A stretch of DNA of 64,000 nucleotides, taken from the NCBI GenBank assembly GCA_024280455.1, contig JAJRQC010000054.1:1-64000 (forward strand), read 5' to 3'. The notes below the pieces were generated by a model that saw only the letters and a list, made by a program, of their open reading frames with translations, searched no databases and was not told the DNA's origin. Of the stretch, positions 8,402-28,737 are shown piece by piece (the first letter of the stretch is position 1; the number at the start of each line of letters is the position of its first letter). The position numbers and the translations under genes are program-made. This stretch comes from Deltaproteobacteria bacterium (GTDB lineage Bacteria; Desulfobacterota; Desulfobulbia; Desulfobulbales; Desulfobulbaceae).

Positions 8402-9562
8402 TTAATCTTTGGTGGTGTGACAGACGAAACACCCGGTAGCAGCCGCTGCTCCGGCATTACCGGCAATCATGGTGCTGTAATCCCAGCGCAGCATGGAGGG
8501 GTAGTCGCTGGCATGGGCAACATGGCAGGAAAGGCACATTACGACATCGCTTCCAGGCGTCACGCTGCTTCCGGCAGCGGCGGGAACCGTGATCCTCGCT
8601 ATTGGTGCCTGCAGGCTGTATACGGTGTAGGCTGCATATTCCCCGCTTGAAGGTAAGGCCAGATCGGTCGGATGTCGGATAAACGGTGAGCTGGCTACAG
8701 CGCCCACTCCGTCGGAGGTTGCGGACTGAAGAGTATGGAAGTTACCGTGACAGGTAGCACAGAACTGACTCATTGTGCCGTCGGGTGGCTGCACGCCGCC
8801 GGTGCCGTGACAACTCAGCTCTGCTGCACCACCACAGCCCAACTGCACCGGGGCCAGGAGTCCGAAGTATTCGTTGTGGCTTGCAGCACTGGGGTTTTCC
8901 TGCCAGTCACTGCTTTCAAATCCTTTAACTCCCATGAGAAAACGATAACTCTCGGCAGGAGTGTTGGCCTGATCAAGTTGACCATCGACGTTGTTGTGAT
9001 GGGCTCCGGTTACCCCGTCGGGGTAACCGGAGCCGGGTAACCTGTAGCCGTGACAACCGTTGGTGCCGGCACAGGTAAGGTTGTCTGTGTTTACATTGCC
9101 GCCGGTGTCATGACCGAACTGCCGGATTCCACCGGGCGGGCCATAGAGTACGCCGTCTGTGCCGGTCAGGTCTCCTATGTTGTGACCCTTGTTGTCTGCG
9201 GCACCACTTCCTTTCAAGCCGGTAATGTAGCCAAAGTTTCCTCCTGCCAGGTCGGTTGCCCCGCTGTGCATGACCTGGGGCATGATGTCGGTACCCAGGT
9301 TGACGGTCGGGCTTGTTCCTCCCTGGGCATGGCAGCCGTAACAGTTCCCTCTGGTCAGGTTATTGTTCGGCGCGGCCGAGCCGTCAAAGGTCATGGCCGC
9401 ATTATCCTGACTGTTGTGCATGGTATGACAATCGTAACAGACCCCCTGTATGGCACCAAGAGCTGTGCCGGAGCAGAGGATGGATATCAGGCATGTTATG
9501 TATGCCGCAGCCGGGTACAACTGACCGGATTTCCAATGTTGTGTGCTTGGCAACTGTGCCAT
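8402..9562 (-). CDS. OmcS/OmcE-type multihaem cytochrome, paralogue 1
   Basis: A 386-residue exported c-type cytochrome. An N-terminal signal peptide ends near ALGA (about residue 36). Five CXXCH motifs are CYDCH, CYGCH, CATCH, CLSCH and CFVCH. A CX5CH motif (CAGTNGCH) occurs at the third position, and there is a further loose C...SCH pair. CHTMHNSQ near the N-terminus, GHNI, SYRFL, FIRHPTD, CLSCHVAHASDYPSMLRWD and a terminal CH-TKD match the layout of the Geobacter nanowire cytochrome OmcS as I recall it. The CHTMH histidine is the one that in OmcS ligates a haem of the next subunit. A good AAAGGATGGGAG precedes the start. Probably a filament-forming extracellular cytochrome. Confidence 0.85.
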   Translation of the reverse strand: MAQLPSTQHWKSGQLYPAAAYITCLISILCSGTALGAIQGVCYDCHTMHNSQDNAAMTFDGSAAPNNNLTRGNCYGCHAQGGTSPTVNLGTDIMPQVMHSGATDLAGGNFGYITGLKGSGAADNKGHNIGDLTGTDGVLYGPPGGIRQFGHDTGGNVNTDNLTCAGTNGCHGYRLPGSGYPDGVTGAHHNNVDGQLDQANTPAESYRFLMGVKGFESSDWQENPSAASHNEYFGLLAPVQLGCGGAAELSCHGTGGVQPPDGTMSQFCATCHGNFHTLQSATSDGVGAVASSPFIRHPTDLALPSSGEYAAYTVYSLQAPIARITVPAAAGSSVTPGSDVVMCLSCHVAHASDYPSMLRWDYSTMIAGNAGAAAATGCFVCHTTKD

Positions 9563-10236
9563 CTCCCATCCTTTTATGTGCTTGTTACCGAGGACTATCG
9601 CTCACGGACTCATCATGCTCAAGTGTCACCTGCAGTACAAACAGGGGGATAATTTTGTGTCCATTCTAATTGAAGTATAGCCTTATCAGTAGTGTTCTTC
9701 AATTGATTTCCCTTGGTCAACTGTACGGGTCGAAAAGGCCGCTGATAAAATCGGTTGGTTCTCTCCTCTTGATTTGTGGAAAGCTGAGCTTTGTACGTAA
9801 TCAGGTATTGTACAGAGACTGGGTATCCGTTTACCTCCAGTAACCACAATCCGTTGTATGCGCTCTGGTTAAGCGGATATCCGGTTTAAAGAGTTTTCGT
9901 GGCAGGCCCCTGGTGTTACGGATTATAAATTGGTAACATTATTTTATTGACCGGGCAAGCTGTTTGTGATAGTTCTAACCATGATGGTACAATGGGGGCA
10001 GGTGAAGTCATATGGGTGGACGAGTGACATTCACCGAACATATTGGCTTGCAGGCCAAGGGAAAACACTGATTGTCGCTTTCTCGAGACACCGGAATTCC
10101 TTGAATTTTTCAGGATACTATGCTAACGGTAAATAGGTAAATGGTTATTTTTTCGACTTTCTGACCGGGGAGCGATTGCGTGGCATTTATATCAGAAGAT
10201 GCAAGGGGATGTTACTGTAAAAAAAGGGGCAAAATT
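9563..10236. other. Divergent intergenic region between two nanowire-type cytochromes
   Basis: 674 bp without a convincing gene. A 76-codon minus-strand frame (9619-9849) lacks a ribosome site and any recognisable motif. TTGACC lies near 9947 with TAGTTC 17 bp downstream, a weak promoter candidate pointing to the plus-strand cytochrome. A short hairpin TTGGC-TTGCAG-GCCAA lies near 10043. The region must hold promoters for both divergent cytochrome genes. Confidence 0.5.
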
Positions 10237-11346
10237 ATGGAAAATCGTATCGGTTTGACAGCTATTCTTTTTGCAGTTGTACTGGGCATTGCTCTTGTTT
10301 CGGTACCTGTTTCAGTTCCAGCCAAGGTGACCGGACAATGTGCCCAGTGCCACACCATGCATAACAGCCAGGGTGGAACACCTATGGCGCTTGATATCGC
10401 CGGTGCTGCGCAGACCGCCCCGAACGAGACCCTGCTCATCTATGGCTGTGTCGCCTGCCATACCGGGACAAACGACGGCACCAACAATATTCCCTATGTC
10501 AACAAAACCACCGCGCCGATTTATGGTACTGACGGAACTACGGGTGAGACCTTGGCCGGCGGTAATTTGTACTGGGTAGCTAAAGTGGGGAATCCGACTG
10601 GGCTTGCCGACGCAACAGGGCATAACGTTGCCAGTGATGGCCTGGCCACCCAGGATGGGACCCTGGGCAACACCCCGCCCGGCGGCACCGCATTGACCAG
10701 TCAGTTGACCTGTGCCGGCACCACCGGCTGTCACGGTGACCGAACCCAGGACAGCGATTTCGGTGCCATGTCCGGCACCCACCACGCTGATGACAGCGTT
10801 ATCGACGGGACGACCGTTGTCAAGAGTTACCGTTTCCTGGACGGGGTGCTTGGCCTGGAGGATTCGGACTGGGAGTACCTGCCGACAGCCGCCGCCCATA
10901 ACCAGTATCAGGGCTATGATCGGACGGCGGACACCGAAATGGCCGTCGGCTCAATCAGTAACCTCTGCGCTCAGTGCCACAATGATTTTCATAACGGCAG
11001 CGGTAACGTGGGTGGAACTGCACCGACTGCGGCCCCTTTTGCCAGTCCCTGGGTCAGGCATCCCACTGATTTTGATATGGGGAATACCGGGGCCACGTCG
11101 GAGTACCGTGACTATGGCGGCGCCGGGGTGAACGCCTACGTTGTTGCCGCCCCGGTCGCCAGTGCTGCCGTCACCACTGTCCTGCAAACGGTTACCTTCA
11201 GTGATGATACCATAGTTACCTGCATCTCCTGTCACCGGGCCCACGGCACGCCCTACGATGATCTGCTGCGCTGGGACTACTCTACTGTCTCAGCCGGCGG
11301 CGGCGGAACCGGCGGTTGTTTTGAATGCCATACCACGAAGAATTGA
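10237..11346 (+). CDS. OmcS/OmcE-type multihaem cytochrome, paralogue 2
   Basis: A 369-residue exported cytochrome, co-linear with paralogues 1 and 3. The signal peptide (hydrophobic residues 5-24) ends near VPAKV. Haem motifs are CAQCH (in CAQCHTMHNSQ), CVACH, CAQCH, CISCH and CFECH, with CX5CH (CAGTTGCHG) between the second and third canonical sites. GGNLYW, GHNV, SYRFL, WVRHPTDFDM and CISCHRAHGTPYDDLLRWDY are shared family blocks. I chose ATG 10237 over GTG 10180 because it gives a standard signal peptide and has a purine-rich site upstream. Likely an extracellular filament subunit; filament formation is inferred from the OmcS resemblance. Confidence 0.87.
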   Translation: MENRIGLTAILFAVVLGIALVSVPVSVPAKVTGQCAQCHTMHNSQGGTPMALDIAGAAQTAPNETLLIYGCVACHTGTNDGTNNIPYVNKTTAPIYGTDGTTGETLAGGNLYWVAKVGNPTGLADATGHNVASDGLATQDGTLGNTPPGGTALTSQLTCAGTTGCHGDRTQDSDFGAMSGTHHADDSVIDGTTVVKSYRFLDGVLGLEDSDWEYLPTAAAHNQYQGYDRTADTEMAVGSISNLCAQCHNDFHNGSGNVGGTAPTAAPFASPWVRHPTDFDMGNTGATSEYRDYGGAGVNAYVVAAPVASAAVTTVLQTVTFSDDTIVTCISCHRAHGTPYDDLLRWDYSTVSAGGGGTGGCFECHTTKN

Positions 11347-11491
11347 CGGTTTGTCCGGGCTGGACCAGCGACGGGGAGCAAGAGCGCAGGCCACTTTTTC
11401 CAATGGTGCAAACCGGGATGAAGTGGCTTTTGTTTGTACCATTTATCAAGCAGCCTAACTGTGTATTCAGGTTTCCCCCTCTTCTACTCTC

Positions 11492-13591
11492 GTGATCAGT
11501 AAAAGACATCGTAACCACCTGCTTTTTTGGTCATGTGTCGCGCTCATGTATTGGATCATCTTCCCTTGTCCTTCGGGCCGGGCTGAAGTCGTTGGCCTGG
11601 ATGCATCATGGCAGACCACGCAAACAGGGAGAGACAGTGAAGACGAGAATCTCAGTTCCTTTAATCAGCGATACCATCTGCAGTGGAATCCCCAGGTAAC
11701 CCGAACCATATTTCTGGATACCAATATGGATTATTCCCGCAACTGGACTACCGGGGCTGGAACCCGGGAGATCATTTCACCTACCCTTGATCTTCAAGTT
11801 CGAAATGATCTCTTTGTTGCCGGGTTCAACGGAATTATTACTGAAACCAACAACACCGAAAGCCGGGATCAGAGCAGCAACAGCTGGGAGATGTCTCTTG
11901 GTTCAAACTGGGAATATCCCTACTGGCCGAATGTACGTGGTATTATCGGCAGCAACCGTATCAACGACAGCGAAGATATAACCGATAATGAACGGTCATG
12001 GTCCGAACTGGTGGTTGACTGGGAGGTCGATGATCTGCAGGCCTATTACAGTTATTACGTGCAGGACAGAACCGATTATGCTGAACGGTCCAGTCGAGAG
12101 GAGCGAACCCATTTTGGTCGTATCGACTATACCAGGAGCTTTTTAGACTATCGCGGTCAGCTGACCTTTTCCCAGCAGGCGACCAGCTCGCGCACGGATT
12201 ATCATGCCTCCGTCGGGGCCGACGGCAGTGTCAATGTCGGAATCAACCTTTCCCGGGCACTGTCGGGAGTGGATAATACTCCGGATCGAGGGACCCTGCC
12301 GTCCAACCCGGGCCTTATCGACGGCAACCGTGATCGAGTCGCCTACACCATTCAACTTCATGAGGTCGCCAACCTCGGGATCAAGACCGATTTTCAGATC
12401 GTCGACATCCTCTACCTGTATACCGGCCAGCTGGACCCGATTCTTCTTGATGAAACCTCTGCGCTCAGCTGGGATCTCTATGCAAGCAGCGACGGTATTG
12501 AGTGGACCCTGGAAAGAGTTCAACCGGCAACGGTCTATAACCGCGATGAGAATCGTTATGAAGTAGTTGTCGGCGGATTGAAAAATATTTACCTCAAACT
12601 GGTGGTCACCGGCTGGCCTCCCGTGCTCAAGGTCCCGATAACCGAAATTGCCGCCTTTCGTACCCAGAGTGGTTCAGGCGGACGGGTTATCGAGGACCAG
12701 CGCTACTCTAAATACGTTACCGACCTGAACCTGCGCTACGATCCGACCCTGAACACCCGCTTCATCTATTCTCTGGTCTGGGACGACAGTGCATATGATC
12801 TGGGAAACAATCGTCAGCGCCTGTTCCAGACCGGAAGTTTCAGATGGTTGTACAATAAATATTTTATCCCGACGGTGACCATTAACGATACCGCGACCAC
12901 CAATTCCGACCTGATGGATACCCTCCAGCGTTCCTATGCCCTCTCCATCCAGTCGACCCCGATTCCGACCCTGCAATCCATTTTCAGCATGACCAGGAAT
13001 GAAAATTACGAGGATGATGACCTCATCAACACCAATCACACCATTAACCTGCTGAATTCGGCCACCCTGTATCCCAACCTGGATACGACTCTTGATTTGA
13101 ATGTTGTCTTCAACAACAACAGACAGCTCGATACCTCCAATGAGGCCATGGGCGTACGATGGGCCCTGACCGGGCGTCTGCGCTCAACCCTGATCGTGGA
13201 TTTTATCACGGAATACGGGACCAATACCCTGGATTTTACCGAACTGATAACCGACGAGGATGCCGGAGGGCGGACGACGCTTAATATAAACTGGCGTCCC
13301 TCCGACCTGGTTTCCATCCTGGTCAATGGTTCACAGGGTTATGGAGAGAAGTGGGTCAACTACCAATCCTTAGTTTTTGATGCACGTTTTTCCGTTGTCC
13401 GCACCGACAAGACGCAGGTTATTCTCGGCTATCGGGCCAATGCCACCCATGATGAGACCATCCAGAGCCTCAGTTACAACTGGAGCTGGAATATAAGCAG
13501 GTACTTGACTTTACAATCGATTGCCAGTTACATGTTGACGGAAGACGATAATATCTGGGCAGCCAATGCCCAGCTGACGGCCAGGTTCTAG
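11492..13591 (+). CDS. Outer-membrane beta-barrel protein with embedded discoidin-like domain
   Basis: A 699-residue exported protein. The signal peptide ends near GRAEV (about 31). Most of the chain alternates polar and hydrophobic residues in amphipathic strands, and it ends in ...QLTARF with terminal Phe, an outer-membrane insertion signal. Residues about 290-390 differ: WDLYASSDGIEWT and the following strands resemble an F5/8 type C (discoidin-like) domain inserted into the barrel. Between cytochrome genes, it is the best candidate for the outer-membrane pore of this locus, like MtrB/PioB in role but without the N-terminal CXXC that I would expect of MtrB. It starts at GTG 11492 with a poor ribosome site. 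Confidence 0.75.
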   Translation: MISKRHRNHLLFWSCVALMYWIIFPCPSGRAEVVGLDASWQTTQTGRDSEDENLSSFNQRYHLQWNPQVTRTIFLDTNMDYSRNWTTGAGTREIISPTLDLQVRNDLFVAGFNGIITETNNTESRDQSSNSWEMSLGSNWEYPYWPNVRGIIGSNRINDSEDITDNERSWSELVVDWEVDDLQAYYSYYVQDRTDYAERSSREERTHFGRIDYTRSFLDYRGQLTFSQQATSSRTDYHASVGADGSVNVGINLSRALSGVDNTPDRGTLPSNPGLIDGNRDRVAYTIQLHEVANLGIKTDFQIVDILYLYTGQLDPILLDETSALSWDLYASSDGIEWTLERVQPATVYNRDENRYEVVVGGLKNIYLKLVVTGWPPVLKVPITEIAAFRTQSGSGGRVIEDQRYSKYVTDLNLRYDPTLNTRFIYSLVWDDSAYDLGNNRQRLFQTGSFRWLYNKYFIPTVTINDTATTNSDLMDTLQRSYALSIQSTPIPTLQSIFSMTRNENYEDDDLINTNHTINLLNSATLYPNLDTTLDLNVVFNNNRQLDTSNEAMGVRWALTGRLRSTLIVDFITEYGTNTLDFTELITDEDAGGRTTLNINWRPSDLVSILVNGSQGYGEKWVNYQSLVFDARFSVVRTDKTQVILGYRANATHDETIQSLSYNWSWNISRYLTLQSIASYMLTEDDNIWAANAQLTARF

Positions 13592-13662
13592 TGTCACGTC
13601 AACGCTGCTCTGACGCCTCTTGCTTGTTCTTTTCCGCGCCTGCATCGTTGACGCGACACTAG
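13588..13662. repeat. Long inverted repeat overlapping the barrel gene's stop codon
   Basis: Left arm 13588-13604 (CTAGTGTCACGTCAACG) and right arm 13646-13662 (CGTTGACGCGACACTAG) match at 16 of 17 positions with a 41-nt loop. The TAG stop of the barrel gene lies in the left arm. No T-run follows, so it may be an mRNA-stabilising structure or a small palindromic element rather than a classic terminator. Confidence 0.7.
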
Positions 13663-13748
13663 GCCGACGGCGCAACGGACAATAAAAAATAAAAACCAGG
13701 AACCGACCAGCCGGAGCCGTATTCTTTCGGTGGAGTTGAAAAAAACCT

Positions 13749-14330
13749 ATGAACAGACCTTTTTTCCACCTTGCTCTTATTTTTTTCTTCCCGTTTTTGT
13801 TGCTCGGTTGCGCCGGTACCGATTCGGCCCGGCAGACCTTTGTCAGGGAAAATGTTGACCTTGGCTACATTACCCGGGTCGCCGTCCTCCCCTTTGCAAA
13901 CAATACCCAGGATGATTTTGCCGCTCAGCGGATCAGGGATATAACCTCGACCCGCATCCTGGCCATGGGAATTTTTGATGTGGTCGACAGGGGAGTCGTT
14001 GACAGCGGGCTGAGGGAGATGGCCATTGACAAGGATACTCCTCTTGACGTGCCCGTGGTTAAACGGCTCGGGCAGAGACTTGGGGTCCAGGCCTTTGTCT
14101 ATGGAACGGTCAACAGTATCGGCGAGAACCGCCAGGGCTCCTTTACCTATCCGCAGGTTGCCCTGACGCTCGAACTCATCGACAGCGAGTCGGCTCAGGT
14201 TCTGTGGCGTAACAGTGATACCAACAGCGGCTATTCTCTTGCCGATAGACTGTTTGGACTTGCGCCTCTGGATGCCTTTCAGATTATCGTTAACCTGCTG
14301 AATTCCATGCTGGCAACAATTCCGAAGTAA
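13749..14330 (+). CDS. CsgG/TolB-N-like lipoprotein
   Basis: A 193-residue lipoprotein. A hydrophobic signal ends in the lipobox LLGC (Cys near residue 21). RVAVLPFANNTQDDFAAQRIRD and VQAFVYGTVNSIGENRQG are typical of the CsgG/TolB-N-like alpha/beta fold found in outer-membrane secretion and assembly lipoproteins. It is the first of three such proteins in a row (with the next two genes), all before the PPIase. A role in assembling or exporting surface cytochromes is plausible but inferred. It follows the barrel gene by ~155 bp holding an inverted repeat, so it may have its own promoter. Confidence 0.65.
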   Translation: MNRPFFHLALIFFFPFLLLGCAGTDSARQTFVRENVDLGYITRVAVLPFANNTQDDFAAQRIRDITSTRILAMGIFDVVDRGVVDSGLREMAIDKDTPLDVPVVKRLGQRLGVQAFVYGTVNSIGENRQGSFTYPQVALTLELIDSESAQVLWRNSDTNSGYSLADRLFGLAPLDAFQIIVNLLNSMLATIPK

Positions 14331-14425
14331 GCGGCATGGTCATCGCAGGATGGTAAACACTTACCAGTCGGATTTACCATAAATCAATATTTGTGGTGAA
14401 CGGCTACGCAGGATGCATCGAGGGA

Positions 14426-15910
14426 ATGATGAACAAATTGCAGCCTCTATGTATTGCACTCTTTCTCCTTCTGGTGCTGGGGCGGCCGGGATTTGCCGGT
14501 ACCATTGCCGTTTTTCCGCTGCTGGATGTAACGGTGAGCAGTAACGGCGTCAGTTACGTTCTGACGGATTATGTACGCAGGGAAACCGCAGACATTGGCT
14601 TTGAGCTCGTTTCCGACCGGGATATAATGCAGTTTCTGATCCGTCATCGCATTCGTGCACTCGGCAGCCTGAGCAGCCATGAGATCATGGCGGCAGGTCG
14701 GGAGCTGCAGGCTGATCTGGTCCTGCAGGGAACGGTCTGTCAGTTGCAGCAGAGTCCGGATCCAGCCGTCAGTCTAAGCGTGGAGCTTATTCGGACCAGC
14801 GATGCATCCGTTGTCTGGGCCAATACCGAGGCCCTGTACTCATCGGATCTCACCAGCCTGCTAGGTCTGCAGGATCCTGAGAATTTGAATGATCTCTATG
14901 CCGTTTTTTTTTCCAGGCTGCTGGCAACCATGCCTGGTGGAGTGAATCCGTCCCCAGGCAGTGATGAAATCCTGGATATAGATTCGGTCGTGCTGCTGCC
15001 CAAGTATTTGCGGCCCGGTGAAAAGGTGCGCTGCAAGATCAGGATGCAGACCATGGACCTGGGAAACGCTCTGCGGCCCAGGTTAACGGCCAGCGTCGCC
15101 GGTCGGGACTATCCGTTTGCTTTAGATAGTGAGGGGTACTACTTTATTGCCGATTGGCCGGCCCAGAACATGGCGGGACACTACCAGGTTAGCTTAACCG
15201 CCGTCTGGCCGTCGGGTCGAAAGAAAACGGCTGTGCTAGGATCCTACACCGTGGATGACCGGGCCCCGGAGGGTGCACTGTATCTTCGTGGCCGGCAAGT
15301 GGACGGGAAGACGTTTTTCAGTGACAAGTTGTATATTGTCCCGACCCTGACCGATCCTGAACCGGTGAGTCGCTGGGAGGTCATGGTTGTTGATCAGGAA
15401 AATCAGGTTATTGTCCGGCAGGGCGCATCCGACCGGCTCCCCTATCGTCTGACCTGGCGGGGGCGGACAACCCTCGGTGCCCTGGCTCCCGATGGTGAGT
15501 ATACCGTGGTATTCAAGGTCTGGGACCGGACCATGCTCAGCGCATCCGTTGAACAGGAGGTATCTTTTAGAAGAAGTCCGCCGGAGATTAACATTGATTT
15601 GAACAGTGAAGAGGAGCGGATAACGGTGACTCTGGACAAAGAGGCAGGAATGCCCCTGTCCTACTGGTGGCTGAAAGTATATGAACAGAGCGGCAGGCTG
15701 GTCAAGCTGGCGCAGGGTGAGCATCTGCCGGCGACCATTGAGTTTGAGTATACGGATGGGGAAGATGATGAACGGCTGGAAGGTGTTGTGGTTGCCCGGG
15801 ATATCCTGGGCAATCTGACCAGGAAAAAGATTAAGAATCTCTTTCGGTTGGATAGTGAAGATGAGAGCGGGGAAGTGGAGATGGAAAAGGAATGGCTGGA
15901 GGAGTTTTAA
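14426..15910 (+). CDS. Exported CsgG/TolB-N-like protein with Ig/FlgD-like C-terminal half
   Basis: About 494 residues. The signal peptide ends near GFAGT. Residues about 25-165 repeat the theme of the preceding lipoprotein (IAVFPLLDVTVSS..., ADLVLQGTVCQL), a CsgG/TolB-N-like domain. The C-terminal half is beta-rich (VVLLPKYLRPGEKVRCKI, YTVDDRAPEG, LAPDGEYTVVFKVWDR) and resembles FlgD-like or Ig-like modules. The end is very acidic. ATG 14426 (or 14429) is preferred to the GTG at 14393 because it gives a clean signal peptide. No enzyme motif is seen. Probably a periplasmic or outer-membrane assembly factor. Confidence 0.6.
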   Translation: MMNKLQPLCIALFLLLVLGRPGFAGTIAVFPLLDVTVSSNGVSYVLTDYVRRETADIGFELVSDRDIMQFLIRHRIRALGSLSSHEIMAAGRELQADLVLQGTVCQLQQSPDPAVSLSVELIRTSDASVVWANTEALYSSDLTSLLGLQDPENLNDLYAVFFSRLLATMPGGVNPSPGSDEILDIDSVVLLPKYLRPGEKVRCKIRMQTMDLGNALRPRLTASVAGRDYPFALDSEGYYFIADWPAQNMAGHYQVSLTAVWPSGRKKTAVLGSYTVDDRAPEGALYLRGRQVDGKTFFSDKLYIVPTLTDPEPVSRWEVMVVDQENQVIVRQGASDRLPYRLTWRGRTTLGALAPDGEYTVVFKVWDRTMLSASVEQEVSFRRSPPEINIDLNSEEERITVTLDKEAGMPLSYWWLKVYEQSGRLVKLAQGEHLPATIEFEYTDGEDDERLEGVVVARDILGNLTRKKIKNLFRLDSEDESGEVEMEKEWLEEF

Positions 15911-15913: not shown

Positions 15914-16507
15914 GTGAGTCGTCCGTTGAGCTGTTGTATAGTCATCCTATGGCTTCTTCTTGCCGGTTGTGCCCGGGAGGTGCCAAAGCTGTACGACTTT
16001 GCCGGCCTGCCGGAAAAAGGCGCATGCCGTATAGCCGTTCTGCCTTTTATCGATAAGGGGACTTATCCCAGAGGCGCAGTAATACTGTATAAGGTTTTTG
16101 TGTCGGAACTTGTCGCGTCCGGTAATTTTAAAGTGGTGCTGGAGGGTGATATCCGGGATCTGTACAAGCAGTTGATGATCTATCCGAACGCTCAACCAAA
16201 CCAGGAACAGCTCGAAGTCATTGGCGGCCGCCTGGGTGCGGTTCTTTTTATCGGCGGCGATATCTTGAAGATGCAGCAACGAAAAAGCCGCAATACCATG
16301 GAGACGGACTTGACCTTTATTCTACGAATATATGACGGTGTCAGCGGAAGGGTACTGTGGGAAACCTACCATCGAAGGCAGGGTGACTATTACCAGAAGG
16401 TTCTGCATTTCGGCCGGATTAATACCATTACCGGACTTGCCCGGCAGATGTCGCGGGAAGTTATAGACCTCTGGCTTGAAAAGGGGATGACGCCATGTCC
16501 CAGGTAA
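15914..16507 (+). CDS. Small CsgG/TolB-N-like lipoprotein
   Basis: A 197-residue lipoprotein starting at GTG 15914, 3 bp after the previous stop. The lipobox is LLAGC (Cys near residue 19). CRIAVLPFIDKGTYPRGAVILYKVF and GAVLFIGGDILKM fit the same fold as the two preceding proteins. YDGVSGRVLWETYHRRQGDYY near the C-terminus resembles the outer-membrane-lipoprotein subtype. Its end overlaps the PPIase start by 13 bp, so the set is tightly coupled to the foldase and 26-haem cytochrome genes. The function is unknown. Confidence 0.65.
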   Translation: MSRPLSCCIVILWLLLAGCAREVPKLYDFAGLPEKGACRIAVLPFIDKGTYPRGAVILYKVFVSELVASGNFKVVLEGDIRDLYKQLMIYPNAQPNQEQLEVIGGRLGAVLFIGGDILKMQQRKSRNTMETDLTFILRIYDGVSGRVLWETYHRRQGDYYQKVLHFGRINTITGLARQMSREVIDLWLEKGMTPCPR

Positions 16508-20134: not shown

Positions 20135-21306
20135 TGCGAAATTCCGTTCTCGTCATGTTTCTTTTGATTGTTGTTGCGCTGCTGTCTGTGGATAGGTCGC
20201 AGGCCGCCGATGTCTCCTGTTTCAAATGTCACGATCCCGCACGGTTTACCGGCAAGGTTGTGCATAAACCGGTTGCCGATGCCAGGTGTGATGTCTGTCA
20301 TAATCCCCATGTGGCCCGCTATAAGGGGCTGCTGCGCCAGCGGCAGGATGTACTCTGTTATTCCTGTCACCGGCAGCAGGAGAAGGCGTTTGCCCGGGGA
20401 GTTGTCCATGATCCTGTTGCCCGCGGTAACTGCAGCGCCTGTCATGCTCCGCATGCGGGGAGCAGAAAGGGCCTTATTCGTGATGATCCGGCCGCAGACT
20501 GTTTTGCCTGTCATAAAGAGTTACCTGAAAAGTATCAGGTGACCCATAGGCCGTATGCAGAAGGACGGTGTATGAGCTGTCATCGCCCCCATCAGGCGGA
20601 TAATCTCCAGCTGCTTGCAGGTGACAGTGACCATCTTTGTCTTTCCTGTCATGAGCTTGCCGAGCTGGAAAAAGGACATGAAGATTTTCCCAGCAAGCTC
20701 AAGAATTGTCTTTCCTGTCATAATCCCCACGGCAGTGAGCGGGCCGGGCTTATCCGAAACGTTCTGCATCAGCCCTTCAAGGATGGGTGCGGTTCCTGTC
20801 ATGACGGTTCCGCCGGGCTGGGAATGGCAAACTGTTTGAAGTGTCATCCGGATGTGCAGGAGCAGATGCTTGCTCCGCACAGTCATTTGAGCCAAACCAA
20901 CGGCAACAGTTGCCTGAACTGCCACTCTCCCCATGCCGGCGATGACGACAACCTGTTGAAGGGCCCGGAACGACTGCTCTGTGCTTCATGCCACGGGCAG
21001 ACCATGGCCGGTTACCGGCAGAGTCGATATCGACATTCGGATATCCAGGACTGCAGTGGCTGTCACGAAGTGCACGGCAGCCGCAATCTGGCCATGCTCA
21101 AAGGGGATGGCAACGGCGTATGTGTTCAGTGCCACGAGACCCAGGGCAAGTTTACCCATCCGGTCGGGCCCGGCGTACTTGATCGTTTTACCGGACAGAT
21201 GGTCACCTGTGTCTCCTGTCATAATCCCATGGGAACGGAGTTTGAATATCATCTGGTCCGGGAAGGGAAAAAAGCCCTGTGTATTGTCTGTCACCGGGCC
21301 TATTGA
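20134..21306 (+). CDS. 16-haem c-type cytochrome, doubled-CXXCH repeat family
   Basis: 390 residues with a cleavable signal ending near SQAAD and 16 CXXCH motifs (CFKCH to CIVCH). The repeat style is the same as in the upstream 26-haem protein (GRCMSCHRPH, NCLSCHNPHG), so the two probably arose by duplication of one unit. Combined they supply 42 haems. ATG 20134 shares a base with the upstream TGA, so translation is coupled; GTG 20131 is an alternative. No lipobox is seen, which suggests a soluble periplasmic or complex-bound protein. An inverted repeat lies downstream. Confidence 0.92.
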   Translation: MRNSVLVMFLLIVVALLSVDRSQAADVSCFKCHDPARFTGKVVHKPVADARCDVCHNPHVARYKGLLRQRQDVLCYSCHRQQEKAFARGVVHDPVARGNCSACHAPHAGSRKGLIRDDPAADCFACHKELPEKYQVTHRPYAEGRCMSCHRPHQADNLQLLAGDSDHLCLSCHELAELEKGHEDFPSKLKNCLSCHNPHGSERAGLIRNVLHQPFKDGCGSCHDGSAGLGMANCLKCHPDVQEQMLAPHSHLSQTNGNSCLNCHSPHAGDDDNLLKGPERLLCASCHGQTMAGYRQSRYRHSDIQDCSGCHEVHGSRNLAMLKGDGNGVCVQCHETQGKFTHPVGPGVLDRFTGQMVTCVSCHNPMGTEFEYHLVREGKKALCIVCHRAY

Positions 21307-21313
21307 TGGGCCC

Positions 21314-21442
21314 GTTGATTAGTGGTATATTCGCCCAATCTCCGCGTTATACGAAAATTTTTATCCTCGGAATATCAACTATATGCCTGTGGTAAAAATT
21401 TTCGTATGCCTTGACCTTGAACGAAAATCCTCATTAATCAAC
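21314..21442. repeat. Nested inverted repeats after the 16-haem cytochrome gene
   Basis: The outer arms are GTTGATTA (21314-21321) and TAATCAAC (21435-21442). The inner arms are ATACGAAAATTTTTA (21349-21363) and its exact complement at 21393-21407. A further ACGAAAAT copy lies at 21421. The ~130-bp unit could be a palindromic mobile remnant or an mRNA processing structure between two parts of the operon. Confidence 0.65.
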
Positions 21443-21527
21443 AGACTCATTGATGTGCTTTTAGATTGCCCGGGAGTTGGTTTTCTGTTCATGCATGCCT
21501 GATCTTGAAAACATGGAGAAAAAATAT

Positions 21528-22421
21528 ATGGTTAAGCTGTTAAATCGGGGTGCTTTCATCGTCTCTTTAATCATAGCAATGCTGTCGACAGGGTGCCTGG
21601 CAGAGGGAAAAACCGTTTCCGGGTGGGCCTGGCAGCGGGTGTTGAAACAGGACCGGTTTCAGGATGCCATGCAGATGCCCACCGCCATGTTTGTCGATGC
21701 GGAAAAAGGACATTATTATGTTGTTGATTCGGGCAGAAACCGGCTGCTTTCTTTTAACCGTCAGGGGGAACTGCTCAACATTTTTAATGCCGGCAGGGCG
21801 CTGCAGACACCTTTTGACATGGTCAAGACCGGTGTCGGTGGAATCTGGGTGGTGGAGAAGGGAAAAAACAGCCTGAGCTATATTGATCTCAAGGCCAGAA
21901 CAGTTACCCCGGCCACCCTGTATTTTAAAGGGACGCTTGTCTATCCCGACCGGATCGAATCTGCAGGCTCCATGCTCTACGTTCTGGATAAGGCAACCGG
22001 TTCGATCATTTCCTATGACTCTGATCTTGTAGCAAAAACACGATTTTCCTGTTCTGACTGCGGTACGGGATTTGTTGACTTCAAGATTCACGGCAAGAGG
22101 ATCTGGGCTCTGGACCAACAGGGGAAGGCGGTATATCGTTTTCGCCTGGATGGAACCAGGGAGGCAGTAATACAACTGGGCGATACTGTTAATTTTCCCG
22201 TTTCACTGGATATTGGTCCCTCCGGCTATATCTATGTTCTGGATCGGCATGCACGGGACGTGGCGGTTTATGATAAGGGCGGCGTCTTTAAATATCGATT
22301 TCTCGGCAAAGGTATCTCCAGGGGACAGTTGTACTACCCGGTGGAAATTCGTTTCGACCCGTGGGGTGGACTGTGTGTTGTTGATGAAGGCAATGCCAGG
22401 GTGGAGATATTTACGCGGTAA
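21528..22421 (+). CDS. NHL-type beta-propeller protein, exported
   Basis: 297 residues. A hydrophobic N-terminus ends in LSTGC, a possible lipobox. Repeated blades follow the NHL pattern: PTAMFVDAEKGHYYVVDSGRNRLLSFNRQGE, YVLDKATGSIISYD, YIYVLDRHARDVAVYDKGG and FDPWGGLCVVDEGNARVEIF. About six blades are likely. ATG 21528 has GGAG 9 nt upstream and is preferred over 21477 and 21513. It lies directly before OmcS-like paralogue 3. Propellers recur beside nanowire cytochromes; a scaffold or capping role is inferred. Confidence 0.8.
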   Translation: MVKLLNRGAFIVSLIIAMLSTGCLAEGKTVSGWAWQRVLKQDRFQDAMQMPTAMFVDAEKGHYYVVDSGRNRLLSFNRQGELLNIFNAGRALQTPFDMVKTGVGGIWVVEKGKNSLSYIDLKARTVTPATLYFKGTLVYPDRIESAGSMLYVLDKATGSIISYDSDLVAKTRFSCSDCGTGFVDFKIHGKRIWALDQQGKAVYRFRLDGTREAVIQLGDTVNFPVSLDIGPSGYIYVLDRHARDVAVYDKGGVFKYRFLGKGISRGQLYYPVEIRFDPWGGLCVVDEGNARVEIFTR

Positions 22422-22435
22422 CGAGGTTGGCGATC

Positions 22436-23506
22436 ATGGGAAAAAAAACCGGGCTCACCGGGGTATTGACGGTGACCGCACTGCTGAGTGTCCTGGCTGT
22501 TCCCTGTCCGGCAAGGGTGACGGGGGTCTGTGTCAACTGTCATACCATGCATAACTCACAGAACAATCTGACCGTTACCGACAGCGGCAGTCCGAATCAG
22601 GCCCTGCTGATCTCCGATTGCATAGGATGTCACACCGGACAGAACACGGGTGGCAGCAATGTGGAACCCTATGTCCATGATACCAGCCCGCCCCTGTACA
22701 GTACGACCGGCACCGAAGCAGACTCCAATACCCTGGCCGGCGGGAACTTCTACTGGGTTTCCAGCGGGCTGGATCGGATGGGGCATAACGTCGAGGGACT
22801 TGCCACTTCCGATGCAACTCTGTCCCTTCCCCCAGGTGGTGACGGCAGTTTTTCCGGACAACTGCGCTGTGCCGGCAGCATGGGATGCCATGGCAACCCG
22901 CTGGAGGCCGAACAGATCCCGGCCTTGAAGGGAGGGCACCATTATAAGGATCATTCCATCTGGCAGGATGGGAGTACCCTTGCAAAGAGCTACCGGTTCC
23001 TTGATACAATTCAGGGCTTCGGCGATTCCTCGTATGAATACCGTCCGACCGATCTGCGCCACAACAAATACTATGGACTTGATCGGAGTGCGGAAACCGA
23101 TCAGGCCCCGGGAACTATCAGTTCGCTTTGTGCCCGCTGTCATAAATATTTTCATAACGGCACCGACAGCGTTGCGCCAGGCAGCACCTTCGGCACCGGG
23201 GTGTGGATACGTCACCCGACGGATTTCGATATGTCGAATGCGACCTCTTCCGGTGAGTACCAGCTGTACAATGGTGGTACCGGTACCGGCAACCCCTATT
23301 CAGTGATTTCTCCGGTGGCCACGGCCGACGTTTCTACGACCCTGAACACGACGATTTATGCCTCTTCAGGTGATGCCGTGGTTATGTGTCTTTCCTGTCA
23401 CCGAGCCCATGGATCTCCCTATACAAGTTCCCTGCGCTGGGATTATAAGGCCTGGCCGGCCGGGGGCTACAATGGGTGTGCAGTCTGTCATACAAGCAAA
23501 AATTGA
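22436..23506 (+). CDS. OmcS/OmcE-type multihaem cytochrome, paralogue 3
   Basis: 356 residues. The signal peptide ends near CPARV. Haem motifs are CVNCH (in CVNCHTMHNSQ), CIGCH, CARCH, CLSCH and CAVCH, plus the CX5CH variant CAGSMGCHG in the same position as in paralogues 1 and 2. It shares GGNFYW, GHNV, SYRFLD, VWIRHPTDFDMSN and CLSCHRAHGSPYTSSLRWDY with them. ATG 22436 with GAGG upstream is preferred to TTG 22427. It starts 14 bp after the propeller gene, so both are co-transcribed. This is the paralogue set deepest in the operon and the best candidate for the main filament subunit. Confidence 0.88.
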   Translation: MGKKTGLTGVLTVTALLSVLAVPCPARVTGVCVNCHTMHNSQNNLTVTDSGSPNQALLISDCIGCHTGQNTGGSNVEPYVHDTSPPLYSTTGTEADSNTLAGGNFYWVSSGLDRMGHNVEGLATSDATLSLPPGGDGSFSGQLRCAGSMGCHGNPLEAEQIPALKGGHHYKDHSIWQDGSTLAKSYRFLDTIQGFGDSSYEYRPTDLRHNKYYGLDRSAETDQAPGTISSLCARCHKYFHNGTDSVAPGSTFGTGVWIRHPTDFDMSNATSSGEYQLYNGGTGTGNPYSVISPVATADVSTTLNTTIYASSGDAVVMCLSCHRAHGSPYTSSLRWDYKAWPAGGYNGCAVCHTSKN

Positions 23507-23527
23507 CCAATCGGAATATATGCTGAT

Positions 23528-24811
23528 ATGAAAAATTTTGTGTTCTTTGTTGTATTATTTCTGTTGTGCTCACTGTAGGGAGGATGGGTCCGGGCGGGCA
23601 CGTATCTTGACTCCGCCCACGGTTCAGCCGCCGACGGGGTCTTTCGCCCGATAATCGGTAATACTCCTCCAGCCGGTTTCGGCTATTCACGGGGAAACTG
23701 TGCCCACTGCCATGAACAGCATTCTTCCTTTGCCGGTTCGGAACCTGCACCGGTGACCGGTGCCGTCCATTTTGCCCTCTTTGCAGCCAACTTTAATACC
23801 GCTATAAACCAGGGCCCCTATGCGGAGGCGCACAACGTCTGTTTTTACTGCCATAACGATGCTGGTACCGTGCAGCCGGTGACCAACAACGATTACAGTG
23901 CAGTTTTTGGCTGCGCCCCTGTGGATACAACTTCCATCATGTCGACCATGAACCAGTTATCCTACCATAATCTGTATGATATCTGGAATTTTTCCACCGG
24001 CCGATTTTCCTGGTTTAAAAATGATTCCAACCCCTGTGACTCCTGCCATAACCCGCATCTTGCCAAACGAAACTGGACCAATCCCAAGGACCCGACCTTG
24101 TCGGTTATGTCAAAACCGACGGATCACTTCAAGCTCTGGGGAACCACCGAGACCATGGGCAGCGTCTATAATACCAGGTATGAACCACCGTATTGTTCGC
24201 CAAGCTTGACCGATCGGGAACCGGGCGCCAGCCCTGATGCGGTGAGCGGCAGAGATGCGACCCCGGATTATGTCGGTTTCTGTACTGATTGCCACAATAC
24301 GACCGACACAATTTACAGCACCAGCCTGGGACGGAATCTTTTGCCCATTGACTGGAGCAACAGCGGCGATAAACACGGCCTGCTGCCCATGGACGGCGGC
24401 CTGGACATCAAGCCGCCTTTTGCCGCAACCGGGGATTATGTCCTCTCCTGCCTCAACTGCCATGAGCCGCATGGTGCTTCCAATGTTATGCTGATCAGGC
24501 GCTGGGTCAACGGCGGTGCCCTGTCCGGCACTATTCCTGTCTACCAGGGTAATGAATGGGGATATCTCTGCAGGAGATGTCACCTGGATGACCTGGAATC
24601 CGGATATAGCTCAACTGCCAATGCCTGGTATTATGTCCATCATTCCAGCGCTGACAGGCCATACCCGGGCCCACTGCCCAATTGCAGTACATGCCATGGC
24701 CCTGGTCCACCAAGTACGAATCCCATAGATTGTGACCAGTGTCATTACCATGGGGCAGTGGTCGATATTATATACGGCGGTAACGCCGGCACATCAAGGA
24801 GATCTTTTTAA
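23528..24811 (+). CDS. Octahaem c-type cytochrome with in-frame TAG at codon 17 (possible pseudogene)
   Basis: From ATG 23528 the frame reads a hydrophobic signal-like start, hits TAG at 23576-23578 and then continues open to 24811. After the TAG come GGWVRAGTYLDSAHG and GNCAHCHEQH, and then CFYCH, CDSCH, CTDCH, CLNCH, CRRCH, CSTCH and CDQCH, giving eight CXXCH in all. No ATG, GTG or TTG occurs in frame between the TAG and GTG 23753. A start there would lose both the export signal and the first haem. The rest shows no decay. Options are a recent nonsense mutation, amber read-through or a sequence error. It ends one base before the next gene. Confidence 0.75.
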
Positions 24812-26251
24812 ATGTATGTGCGCAGCCTGACAAACGGTGTTGTTGTTGCCCTCCTGTTGGTTGCTTTGTTGCAGCTTTCAGGCTGCACGTCCCCAGGCAG
24901 TTCATCCTCCGGTACGTCTTTGCCGGTGCTGTCCGGAAATGGCAGGGTTTCCCTTTTTCTCAGTCTGAAGGAGGACCGGGGGGCTGATCTGGAGATGCGG
25001 ATACGCTCCATTGAGCTGCTGTCCGAGGGCGGCAGTTGGCAACCCCTTGGCGCCGAGGTGGTTACGGTTCGATCCGGCACAATCGGGAACCGTCAGGTCT
25101 TTATCGGCAGATCCTTGTTGGTGCCGGGATATTATTCACGCCTGCGGCTGAACCTGATTGATGCCGCTCTCTATCAGCGTATGGATGAACGGATTCCCCT
25201 TACCCTGGAGACAGAGGTTGTCGAGATCAAGATTCCTGATCCTCTGTATATCGATAAGGGAGATTCGCGCTCCCTTTTTCTGTCCTGGGATGTTCAGGCC
25301 TCGCTTGCTGAAGGAGCCCGCTTCAGGCCTGTTTTAAGGCTTGCTCCCAGCTTGAAAAACCTCATTGCCGACGTGGCCTATGTCGCCTGCCCCGATATCA
25401 ATACGGTGTATATGATCCGTACGGATAAAAATCAGGTTCTTGATTCGCTGGGCGTAGCCGGGGCACCGACCTACCTGTTGCGGGCACCTTTTATACCCGC
25501 CGAAAACCTGTATGCTTTGACTCCGGAAGATCTGGGGGTTAAGCGTATTGCTGCGGCGGCAAACAGGGTGGTGGAAACCTATCGCTTATCTATGAGCGGA
25601 AAGCCGACCCATATGGCTCTGGGACCGGCCGGAAGGCGGGCCTATCTCATTGACCGGAAACGGGGGAACATTCTGCGGATGGATCTGCAGTCCGGCACTG
25701 TTGACCTGCGGGCACGCCTGGGGCACGGGCCGGTATATATCATTTACCTGAAAAAAAGAAATCTGCTGGCGGTCTCTTTTTCCCTGTCCCAGACCGTGGT
25801 TCTGGTTGATCCGGAACATCTGAGTCCGGTGCAGACCATTTCAACCTCGGGTCGGCCGGAGGGACTTGCGGTCTGGAAGGACAGGCTGCTCTATATTGCG
25901 GAGTCGGGTTCCAACACGGTTTTGCAGTATGACCTGGAGCAGAGCCGGACGGTGAGGCGAATACCGGTCGGGTTCAGCCCCCGGCGCATCCTGGCGCTTG
26001 ACAATATGATCTATGTTGCCGACTACGGGTCGAAATCCATTTCCATGCTGCGGCCGGGTCAGCTGGGGGTGACGAGGGCCATCCCTCTGTCCGGGCGTCC
26101 GCTTGAGCTGGCCGATGTTGCGAGCCGGAAATTTATTTATGTCGGCAATGAAGAGGAAAAGGCCATAACCATTATCGATTCCGTCACCATGAAGGTGGTG
26201 GGCGCAATTGAACTCGGTGCCCGGCCCGCAGGAATTGTCGTTATGGATTGA
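24812..26251 (+). CDS. Beta-propeller lipoprotein (YncE/40-residue repeat type)
   Basis: 479 residues with a clear lipobox LSGC (Cys near residue 25). Residues about 40-180 form a beta-rich region resembling DUF4382-like domains (RVSLFLSLKEDRGADLEMRIRSIELLSEGG...). From ~190 a seven-bladed type propeller follows, with repeats such as VYMIRTDKNQVLDSLGV, TVVLVDPEHLSPVQTISTSGRPEGLAV, NMIYVADYGSKSISMLRPGQ and KAITIIDSVTMKVVGAIELGARPAGIVV. No enzyme motif is present. It sits between cytochrome genes and is probably a surface- or outer-membrane-anchored scaffold of the electron-transfer complex. The family is clear but the function is not. Confidence 0.72.
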   Translation: MYVRSLTNGVVVALLLVALLQLSGCTSPGSSSSGTSLPVLSGNGRVSLFLSLKEDRGADLEMRIRSIELLSEGGSWQPLGAEVVTVRSGTIGNRQVFIGRSLLVPGYYSRLRLNLIDAALYQRMDERIPLTLETEVVEIKIPDPLYIDKGDSRSLFLSWDVQASLAEGARFRPVLRLAPSLKNLIADVAYVACPDINTVYMIRTDKNQVLDSLGVAGAPTYLLRAPFIPAENLYALTPEDLGVKRIAAAANRVVETYRLSMSGKPTHMALGPAGRRAYLIDRKRGNILRMDLQSGTVDLRARLGHGPVYIIYLKKRNLLAVSFSLSQTVVLVDPEHLSPVQTISTSGRPEGLAVWKDRLLYIAESGSNTVLQYDLEQSRTVRRIPVGFSPRRILALDNMIYVADYGSKSISMLRPGQLGVTRAIPLSGRPLELADVASRKFIYVGNEEEKAITIIDSVTMKVVGAIELGARPAGIVVMD

Positions 26252-26276
26252 CTTGAGGTAACGTGGTGAAATTATT

Positions 26277-27464
26277 ATGTTGAATTCTATATTCAGGCAA
26301 CAGCTCTTCGTTATTTTTTTCCTGGCTGCGACCCTGTTCTGGTCGTGCCTGCTGTCCGTTGATCGGGCCAGTGCCTATACCGTGCTGACCCCTGCGCCCG
26401 GTACTGTGGTGATAATCCAGGCCCGGCGGCCCGTTACCCGTTTGATTGTACAGGTGACGGATCAGGATGAATTGTCCCGGATGCAGGTCCGGGAAATGAC
26501 GGGAAAAAATAGCGCGGGAAAAAATATCAAGCCGGTCGGAGTCTGGAAGGAACAGCAGATCTCGTATGTCAATTACCGGTTGGAACTGCAACCCGGGCTC
26601 AACACCTTTGTTATCGAGCCCGGGGAAACAAAGGTGACCATACGGTATCGGCCGGTGCGTACCCTGTCCAGTGTGGACTTTGAGGATCCTGAAGCCTTTC
26701 TCTTTCATCGCAGGGCCGTGGTCCCGACGTCCTGCACTCCCTGTCACAACAAAAGCCTGCCGAAGGATACCGGGCTGGATGAGAAGCGGATGGCAAAGGA
26801 GGGAAACTTTTCTCCTCTCTGTTTTTCCTGTCATCGTCGCCTGATTACAGGCGAAAAATGGCTGCACGGCCCTTCGGCCAATGTCGACTGCATGTCCTGC
26901 CATGACCTGGGCGGAAAAAAAACCAAGGTAACCATTCCCTTCCGCAGGCGGGCGGAACTCTGTTTTGACTGTCATGTGAACAAGACGAAGCTGATGAAGG
27001 AGAAATATCTGCATGGGCCTTTTAAATTCGGTGACTGTACGGTTTGTCACGATCCTCATGGCAATGCATATAAGTTCCAGCTCTGGGCCGATGGCCGGGC
27101 CGAACTGTGCGTGGACTGCCACTCCGATAAAAAGAAATCCCTGAAAAAATCACTGGACTTTGTTTCCCATGGCATCATTGAGGGGAGCGGTTGTATTGCC
27201 TGTCATGATCCCCATGCCAGTGGTAATCCGTTTCAACTCTATAAGCCTGTCAATGAACTCTGTGTGAGTTGTCATATCAAACTGCAGGGGATCAAACGAG
27301 GCCATCCGGTGGGCAATCATCCATTGAGCGGGGTGGAGAATCCCCTTCGCAAGGGAAGAGAATTCGCTTGCTCAAGCTGCCATAATCCACATGGTTCCAA
27401 ATATCGTTATCTCCTGATCGGAGATCCGCTTGGCGGTCGTGTCTGTGGAAAATGTCATCACTGA
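26277..27464 (+). CDS. Decahaem c-type cytochrome with N-terminal beta domain
   Basis: 395 residues. The signal peptide ends near ASAYT. Residues about 35-145 have no haem site and look beta-rich (YTVLTPAPGTVVIIQARRPV...LNTFVIEPGETKVTIRY), perhaps a binding module. Ten CXXCH motifs follow (CTPCH, CFSCH, CMSCH, CFDCH, CTVCH, CVDCH, CIACH, CVSCH, CSSCH, CGKCH), the last at the C-terminus. The doubled-CXXCH pattern (CTVCHDPHG, CIACHDPHA, CSSCHNPHG) matches the 26- and 16-haem proteins. The beta domain suggests docking on a partner such as the following propeller, whose gene overlaps it by up to 35 bp. Confidence 0.9.
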   Translation: MLNSIFRQQLFVIFFLAATLFWSCLLSVDRASAYTVLTPAPGTVVIIQARRPVTRLIVQVTDQDELSRMQVREMTGKNSAGKNIKPVGVWKEQQISYVNYRLELQPGLNTFVIEPGETKVTIRYRPVRTLSSVDFEDPEAFLFHRRAVVPTSCTPCHNKSLPKDTGLDEKRMAKEGNFSPLCFSCHRRLITGEKWLHGPSANVDCMSCHDLGGKKTKVTIPFRRRAELCFDCHVNKTKLMKEKYLHGPFKFGDCTVCHDPHGNAYKFQLWADGRAELCVDCHSDKKKSLKKSLDFVSHGIIEGSGCIACHDPHASGNPFQLYKPVNELCVSCHIKLQGIKRGHPVGNHPLSGVENPLRKGREFACSSCHNPHGSKYRYLLIGDPLGGRVCGKCHH

Positions 27465-28737
27465 GCCGATACGAAAGTTCCTGCTGGTGACCATTGTCGC
27501 AGCCTGGTCTCTTTCGATGTTTGTTCACCCGCTCTACGGGGAAGAAGACCCGGGGGAGCGGAAAGTCGCCGTCCGGGTCGTTGCTGTCCTGTCTACGGAT
27601 GACCTGGGCGTGGAACTTCGCTATCCGTCGTCGGTCTACTGTGATCTTGCTATGGATGAAACCTATGTAGTCGGCGGCGGAGAGGGTAAGGTTGTTGTGT
27701 ATGGCCCCAATTTCTTCCCGGTTGCCTCTCTTGCCGGGGGCAGAGGGGCGGATGCGCCAAGGGGGATCTACATCGACGGGAAGAATAACCTCTATGTCTG
27801 CCAGGGAAAATCAGCCTCCAGGCCGGGACGTGTGACAATCTACAACCCCGCCTTCTTCCCTGAACAAGAGATCACCTTTGCCGATATGCCGGAAGGTGAG
27901 AATTTTGCGCCGGGCAACCTGGTCATCGGAATCACCGGGAATATGTATATTACCGGTCTGAACACCAGAGGCGTTATGGTCCTTGACGGCAACGGCGGCT
28001 TTTTACACTGGCTGAAACCCCGGGACCGCATCTTTGACCGCAAGGCGCTTGAAGCCCTCGCAGGCTCGGAGGCTGTCGATCCGGAGATCCTGCCGACCGA
28101 TTCAATGCAGTCGGAACAAAGCAAGGCGGCAGAGGAAGAGGATGAGTTGAAAAAGTTGCTGCCCCCGGCTCTGCAGCCCCAGGGGCGGAGGGTTGACGAC
28201 TCGGAAGAACCTTCCGTTGTCGGACCGGTTAAAATCGTTGATGTGAAACGGGACTCGACCGGACATCTGTACCTGCTGAGCGAGGAGACCAGCAAGGTGT
28301 ACGTGTACAACTCAGCCGAGGAATTTTTGTTCTCTTTTGGCCGCAAAGGCGGTTCAACCGGCAAGATGAGCCGTCCCAAAAGTCTGGTCATTGATGAGAA
28401 AAGGAAAGCCGTTTTTATTGTCGACTACATGCGTCATACGATCCTGATCTATGATCTGGGTGGAAGGTTTATGTATGAGTTTGGTGGGCTGGGAAGGGCA
28501 CCCGGATGGTTTCAGTATCCGAGCGGACTTGCCATGAACCGGGAGGGGCAGCTGCTGGTGGCCGATCTCTTCAATCATCGGGTCCAGGTGCTTGATGTCC
28601 AGTTTGACTATACCTTTCCGATGTTCACGGTCCCGGATGAACAGGAGCAGCCGTACGACGGACCCCAACCTGATGAGGACCAGGATGAGGAGCTGATCCC
28701 CGAAGAGGGGGAGATTTTGCAACCGCAGCCTTTGTGA
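27430..28737 (+). CDS. NHL-repeat beta-propeller protein, exported
   Basis: Up to 435 residues. A hydrophobic signal ends near PLYGEE. Propeller blades include PRGIYIDGKNNLYVCQG, NLVIGITGNMYITGLNTRGVMVLDGNG, DVKRDSTGHLYLLSEETSKVYVYN, RPKSLVIDEKRKAVFIVDYMRHTILIYD and PSGLAMNREGQLLVADLFNHRVQVLD. A low-complexity acidic insert (about 210-270) and a Pro/Glu/Asp-rich tail are notable. The start is uncertain: TTG 27430, GTG 27439 or GTG 27445, all inside the cytochrome gene, so translation is coupled. It is the third propeller in the locus and the last gene before a terminator. Confidence 0.75.
   Translation: MAVVSVENVITEPIRKFLLVTIVAAWSLSMFVHPLYGEEDPGERKVAVRVVAVLSTDDLGVELRYPSSVYCDLAMDETYVVGGGEGKVVVYGPNFFPVASLAGGRGADAPRGIYIDGKNNLYVCQGKSASRPGRVTIYNPAFFPEQEITFADMPEGENFAPGNLVIGITGNMYITGLNTRGVMVLDGNGGFLHWLKPRDRIFDRKALEALAGSEAVDPEILPTDSMQSEQSKAAEEEDELKKLLPPALQPQGRRVDDSEEPSVVGPVKIVDVKRDSTGHLYLLSEETSKVYVYNSAEEFLFSFGRKGGSTGKMSRPKSLVIDEKRKAVFIVDYMRHTILIYDLGGRFMYEFGGLGRAPGWFQYPSGLAMNREGQLLVADLFNHRVQVLDVQFDYTFPMFTVPDEQEQPYDGPQPDEDQDEELIPEEGEILQPQPL

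Follow-up and report, generated by a model that had tools for sequence, protein, structure and literature searches.

We have analyzed a 64,000-nt stretch of DNA (the window) from contig JAJRQC010000054.1 of a Desulfobulbaceae genome assembly (GCA_024280455.1), in which positions 8402-28737 hold a large cytochrome locus. Judged by its sequence, this locus is a Desulfobulbia-type variant of the osc (omcS-companion) cluster of Geobacter sulfurreducens. With a probability of about three in four, it folds, exports and electrically feeds OmcS-type nanowires, the subunit of which would be a hexaheme by virtue of a CX5CH motif. We favour nanowire assembly and export because of the homology to OmcS, the nearly fixed gene order, the counterparts in the Geobacter block, the preserved histidine of a CHTMH motif and the presence of a PelC relative. 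The locus adds a dsrA-carrying Desulfobulbia genome to a known nanowire-assembly machine, and in many lineages the genes of the block (barrel, CsgG-like, prolyl isomerase (PPIase), 26-heme, 16-heme and propeller) follow one another in the same order. The CX5CH motif matters more than the locus itself; a stretched heme site is the least expected part of these results and merits specialist attention.

In G. sulfurreducens an eight-gene block, GSU2500-2493, lies beside the omcS-like gene GSU2501; Shen et al. 2025 are reported to have connected this block with the maturation and secretion of OmcS (2026 mBio, PMC12977616). A further article (2026 Frontiers, PMC13194489) supplies the osc names and the roles of OscH in folding, OscEFG in secretion and OscD in morphology; oscC, oscI and oscJ are named in its table, while the letters used here for the window genes (E for the barrel, F and G for the CsgG-like proteins, K for the NHL propeller) are assigned from gene order. 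Profile hidden Markov models built from related loci recover all eight block members in a genome of the Geobacter type, where they are arranged as OscD, barrel, two CsgG-like proteins, PPIase, 26-heme, 16-heme and NHL protein, and since every member is recovered we conclude that the window carries an osc cluster. All protein types from OscD to OscK are found in the window. The order barrel, CsgG-like, PPIase, 26-heme, 16-heme, NHL is common to the window and loci L109 and L113; the position of OscD differs. The features of the locus are the following.

8402..9562, minus strand: OmcS-like cytochrome 3 (5 CXXCH plus CX5CH), divergently transcribed
9050..9073, minus strand: CX5CH codons of heme site 3 in OmcS-like 3 (CAGTNGCH, residues 164-171)
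10180..11346, plus strand: OmcS-like cytochrome 1 (5 CXXCH plus CX5CH; match to 6ef8, E=6e-13; AlphaFold2 pLDDT 84)
10711..10734, plus strand: CX5CH codons of heme site 3 in OmcS-like 1 (CAGTTGCH, residues 178-185)
11492..13591, plus strand: large outer-membrane beta-barrel, OscE-like (AlphaFold2 strands; profile against the Geobacter-type barrel, E=6e-28)
13749..14330, plus strand: CsgG/LpoB/PelC-like lipoprotein, OscF-like (PF13036; 5t0z, E=2.8e-5; Geobacter-type counterpart, E=3e-41)
14393..15910, plus strand: CsgG-like protein with an immunoglobulin-like (FlgD_ig) domain, OscG-related (placed with CsgG by profile similarity only)
15914..16507, plus strand: CsgG/LpoB-like lipoprotein, OscG-related (Pfam and profile)
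16495..18132, plus strand: PpiC-type prolyl isomerase, OscH-like (PF13145; Geobacter-type counterpart, E=5e-37)
18113..20134, plus strand: 26-heme cytochrome, predicted lipoprotein, OscI-like (26 CXXCH; lipobox in 50/66 orthologues; 6r2q_A, E=5e-19)
20131..21306, plus strand: 16-heme cytochrome, OscJ-like (16 CXXCH; profile)
21477..22421, plus strand: NHL propeller, OscK-like (PF01436; Geobacter-type counterpart, E=1e-34)
22427..23506, plus strand: OmcS-like cytochrome 2 (5 CXXCH plus CX5CH)
22868..22891, plus strand: CX5CH codons of heme site 3 in OmcS-like 2 (CAGSMGCH, residues 148-155)
23528..24811, plus strand: octaheme cytochrome frame with an in-frame TAG at 23576-23578 (open part 23753-24811, 7 CXXCH)
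24812..26251, plus strand: YNCE-like propeller, predicted lipoprotein, OscD-like (Geobacter-type counterpart, E=1e-62)
26277..27464, plus strand: decaheme cytochrome, accessory (10 CXXCH)
27430..28737, plus strand: second NHL propeller, accessory (PF01436)

The locus thus comprises three OmcS-like and four further multiheme cytochromes, a PPIase, an outer-membrane barrel, three CsgG/PelC-like proteins and three propellers (two NHL and one YNCE-like by Pfam or profile), and translation of the open reading frames (ORFs) bears out this inventory as a preliminary description of the DNA had given it, together with its three CX5CH motifs, one in each OmcS-like protein. The seven intact cytochrome ORFs contain 5, 5, 26, 16, 5, 7 and 10 CXXCH motifs. 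These make 74 of the 75 reported earlier; the 75th (CAHCH) lies upstream of the octaheme ORF, behind the TAG codon. The same description had proposed nanowire assembly and export by a set of genes of which it knew no described example. Assembly and export is still the best reading, now as a member of the osc clusters, whereas the set is not new, its core having been described both as the osc cluster and by Skennerton et al. 2017 (PMC5539420), who reported an operon of PPIase, 26-heme, 16-heme and six-bladed propeller genes in SEEP-SRB1, Desulfuromonadales, Thermodesulfobacterales and Desulfurivibrio. Compared with the Geobacter block, the third CsgG-like gene, the moved OscD-like gene and the extra octaheme and decaheme genes might be taken as signs of a complete nanowire machine that has escaped description, but each of the eight genes of that block has a counterpart in the window, and the four-gene core had already appeared in print in 2017 for Desulfurivibrio, Thermodesulfobacterales and others, and we give this view hardly any credence. 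An undescribed export system was rejected on the same grounds, as all core genes have Geobacter osc counterparts and the core is published.

A scan of a genome collection yielded 76 related loci, mostly from Desulfobulbaceae, Thermodesulfobacteria, Desulfuromonadales and related metagenome bins; a few are labelled Nitrospirae, Chloroflexi or Heimdallarchaeota and may be misbinned. The closest relatives, mostly 75-90% identical, are in the vent Desulfobulbus-labelled bins of loci L004 and L029. Cultured relatives that have the cluster include Thermodesulfatator autotrophicus (L017) and Thermodesulfobacterium hydrogeniphilum (L059). Where both members of a neighbouring core pair are present, their order is kept in 46/47, 48/49, 47/48, 51/51, 53/56, 54/54 and 46/46 loci, so that the search for the same gene order in other genomes, which the preliminary description had suggested, found it kept in 46-54 loci per neighbouring pair. 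All eight core genes occur together in 27 loci, the remaining loci being cut by contig or retrieval limits. A model with three paralogues matches 64 of 395 genomes drawn from the phylum of the window. The window genome encodes dsrA, which makes sulfate reduction, or some other dissimilatory sulfur metabolism, probable for its host.

The relation of the three paralogues to OmcS is clear at the sequence level. OmcS-like 1 matches OmcS (PDB 6ef8) with E=6e-13 as a single sequence, and a profile of 88 OmcS-like relatives does so with E=2e-26. Paralogues 2 and 3 are 39-52% identical to OmcS-like 1, and the identity of the OmcS-like proteins to Geobacter-type OmcS-like proteins is in the range of 26-28%. 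No other OmcS-like genes were found in the window genome, and a recent duplication is ruled out, each of the three clustering with orthologues from other genomes. OmcS itself has six CXXCH motifs; because the window proteins have five and one CX5CH, we call them OmcS-like and not OmcS. The CHTMH motif is present in all three, as the preliminary description had stated, and its histidine is kept in 131/136 homologues (109/112 of those with CX5CH). In the alignment with OmcS the second histidine of CHTMH is residue 16 in the numbering of 6ef8, presumably the one that ligates the heme of the neighbouring OmcS subunit. Ligation of one heme by a histidine from the neighbouring subunit is stated for OmcS in two papers (PMC6584659; PMC12954529).

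The site at which the OmcS-like proteins depart from OmcS, heme site 3, varies in spacing across the family. Among 136 OmcS-like homologues it is CX5CH in 112, CX2CH in 16, CX3CH in 6 and CX4CH in 2, and at every spacing both cysteines and the histidine are kept in the same alignment column. The CX5CH form has the consensus CAGxxGCHG, the final four positions of which (G, C, H and G) are invariant in 112/112 rows, and its occurrence in one aligned column of 112 homologues rules out an origin by chance. Ten of the CX2CH rows make up a deep branch, to which the Geobacter-type sequences and L114 belong; one row, from L111, is closely orthologous to OmcS (621 bits to 6ef8) and its site reads CSSCHDPHG. 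The remaining CX2CH rows lie next to those with CX3CH or CX4CH in the tree, and members of this neighbourhood often have an extra CXXCH shortly downstream. On this quick tree, from which the columns of site 3 were excluded, CX5CH is separated from the rest by one change with a branch support of 57, and a single origin of the CX5CH type is possible. OmcS-like paralogues with an extra CXXCH beside site 3, and seven heme motifs in total, occur in L021, L038, L061, L062, L097 and L103; they often directly adjoin a paralogue of the CX5CH type.

Because CX2CH, CX3CH and CX4CH occur at the same place in homologues, the series suggests that the CX5CH proteins have a genuine heme site in which the spacing is stretched. 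Two histidines, H201 and H202, do not vary among the 112 CX5CH rows, and the distal ligand of a sixth heme could be one of them. To go by this conservation, the axial histidines would then reach a total of twelve, matching the twelve of OmcS (PMC6584659). Alternatively, the two cysteines might form a disulfide in a hairpin, leaving the OmcS-like proteins pentahemes. The AlphaFold2 model of OmcS-like 1 indeed has two short strands flanking CX5CH, and no report of CX5CH as a heme motif was found in the literature searched, where unusual CX3CH and CX4CH motifs are mentioned; this search covered the cytochrome literature only in part and is weak evidence of novelty. To our knowledge, there is no solved c-type heme on CX5CH. 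A disulfide is nevertheless improbable given the homologues with CX2CH, CX3CH and CX4CH in the same column, in which Cys, Cys and His are always kept, and given the two invariant histidines. The window genome has four matches to PF01578 among heme-lyase-type genes, none pointing to a dedicated lyase. We lean, by a modest degree, to the conclusion that outside Geobacter the majority of OmcS-type nanowire cytochromes attach heme 3 through a heme c site not described before, CX5CH (CAGxxGCHG), that the spacing ranges from 2 to 5 across the family, and that in most lineages CXXCH counts fall one heme short for each subunit. If CX5CH binds heme, CXXCH-only counts mislabel most non-Geobacter OmcS-type proteins as pentahemes and these proteins escape searches for hexahemes; the motif would also offer a test case for how the heme-attachment machinery deals with a stretched motif.

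Our view of how the locus works is transferred from G. sulfurreducens, its direct basis in the window being gene identity, gene order, conservation and the spacing series at site 3. The OmcS-like subunits would enter the periplasm and receive their hemes, heme 3 of each being held by CX5CH instead of CXXCH so that the subunit is still a hexaheme. The OscH-like PpiC chaperone would hold them competent, and the barrel with the PelC/CsgG-like proteins (OscE, OscF and OscG) would carry them across the outer membrane. On polymerisation the CHTMH histidine of one subunit would ligate a heme in the subunit that follows. Electrons would pass between the periplasm and the base of the wire by way of OscJ and OscI, the 16-heme protein and the predicted 26-heme lipoprotein, and the propellers (OscD and OscK) may tune assembly or morphology. 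Sequence does not tell whether electrons are taken up or disposed of.

Several observations weigh against the favoured reading. Apart from the possible disulfide at site 3, the AlphaFold2 model of OmcS-like 1 (predicted local distance difference test score, pLDDT, 84) gave no significant Foldseek match to OmcS (6ef8), although heme-free models match poorly. In Geobacter, wire formation is known for OmcS only, the functions of OmcT and GSU2501 from the same operon being unknown (PMC12977616), and the three filament subunits claimed in the preliminary description are to that extent unproven. Its "complete" machine is weakened by a nonsense codon in the octaheme gene. The OmcS-like proteins might then act at the surface or in the periplasm without forming polymers, in a cluster for short-range electron transfer, but the inter-subunit histidine motif is kept throughout nearly all of the homologues and the companion assembly genes keep their order across loci, and we consider this unlikely. 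As to the octaheme frame, the TAG lies within the signal peptide, the CAHCH is in the same frame, and in many cases relatives have an intact eight-heme gene at the same place; in the window, either the gene is broken or the assembly is wrong at this point.

Nanowire export has to be weighed more closely against electron conduction in the case of the barrel and the large cytochromes. The barrel, present in one copy in the window genome, has no Pfam match; its AlphaFold2 model (pLDDT 85) has ~29 long strands and an inserted domain of ~130 residues (about 219-347). The inserted domain gave weak profile matches to F5/8 type C-like domains, galactose oxidase/CBM32 (E 0.0036-0.1). MtrB had the highest TM-score among the Foldseek matches listed, at 0.42 below a convincing fold match. 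The 26-heme protein has a lipobox in 50/66 orthologues, most orthologues of the 16-heme protein have none, and the best solved relative of the 26-heme protein is 6r2q_A of the Mtr complex (E=5e-19 over about 150 residues). The lipobox predicts a lipoprotein, so that the earlier description of the 26-heme protein as a periplasmic wire is doubtful, and a pair of 26- and 16-heme periplasmic wires was rejected. In some related loci (e.g. L008, L009, L018 and L033) the OmcS-like gene and the barrel are separated by the gene of a further large multiheme cytochrome, which shares about 30% identity with the 26-heme protein; within the 26-heme group, 14 motifs are found in eight members. The accessory decaheme has 10 CXXCH in 14/14 orthologues.

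Murali et al. 2023 (PMC10553843) proposed OetABI conduits with OmcS-like proteins in syntrophic sulfate reducers, and the arrangement typical of OetABI, a barrel accompanied by a periplasmic and a lipoprotein multiheme cytochrome, has a match here in the 16-heme protein (no lipobox in most orthologues) and the lipobox-bearing 26-heme protein. Conceivably, then, these three form mainly a porin-cytochrome conduit of this type, the OmcS-like proteins being extracellular partners and secretion being encoded elsewhere. The predicted lipoprotein nature of the 26-heme protein, its Mtr relative and the position of MtrB among the barrel matches agree with this; the low TM-score does not, the PPIase and the CsgG/PelC-like proteins are not needed by a conduit, and PMC12977616 and PMC13194489 link the Geobacter block to secretion. 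We regard a conduit as a tentative alternative, which overlaps with nanowire assembly and export to the extent that both may hold. The barrel itself may export subunits, conduct electrons, or do both: export is favoured because of the CsgG/PelC-like proteins and the Geobacter genetics, conduction because both the barrel and the 26-heme cytochrome, a predicted lipoprotein, resemble Mtr proteins. LpoB/CsgG-type Pfam matches were obtained for two of the three CsgG-like proteins, and for the third (14393-15910) profile similarity only. The best solved relative of the OscF-like lipoprotein is 5t0z, followed more weakly by 5t11, 5t10 and 9h80_C; the last is named PelC, and we take the other three to be PelC structures as well. 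PelC acts as a ring with the PelB barrel. Elsewhere in the window, positions 45410-50620 hold ordinary ATP synthase genes.

Compared with known systems, PelC (5t0z, 9h80) is the closest solved relative of the OscF-like lipoprotein, although the similarity is weak (E=2.8e-5) and cargo and barrel are unlike. MtrAB (6r2q) resembles the locus in the 6r2q_A match and in MtrB leading the barrel matches listed, and differs in the TM-score of 0.42, in the far greater number of hemes in the window and in the domain inserted in the barrel. OetABI is alike by description, with a barrel and cytochromes and OmcS-like genes alongside, but the role assigned to it is electron conduction (PMC10553843). The SEEP-SRB1 operon has the same PPIase/26-heme/16-heme/propeller core; no role in nanowire secretion is assigned to it, and its four core proteins are described as unattached to membranes, whereas the window 26-heme protein is a predicted lipoprotein (PMC5539420). 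OmcS (6ef8/6nef) is homologous across most of the chain and shares CHTMH, but has CXXCH where the window proteins have CX5CH. With the G. sulfurreducens osc cluster (GSU2493-2501, omcS/omcT) the window shares eight protein types and several adjoining OmcS-like genes. The window differs from it in having three CsgG-like genes instead of two, an OscD-like propeller placed downstream, extra octaheme, decaheme and second NHL genes, and OmcS-like proteins with CX5CH at site 3, and these differences are at the level of a variant only.

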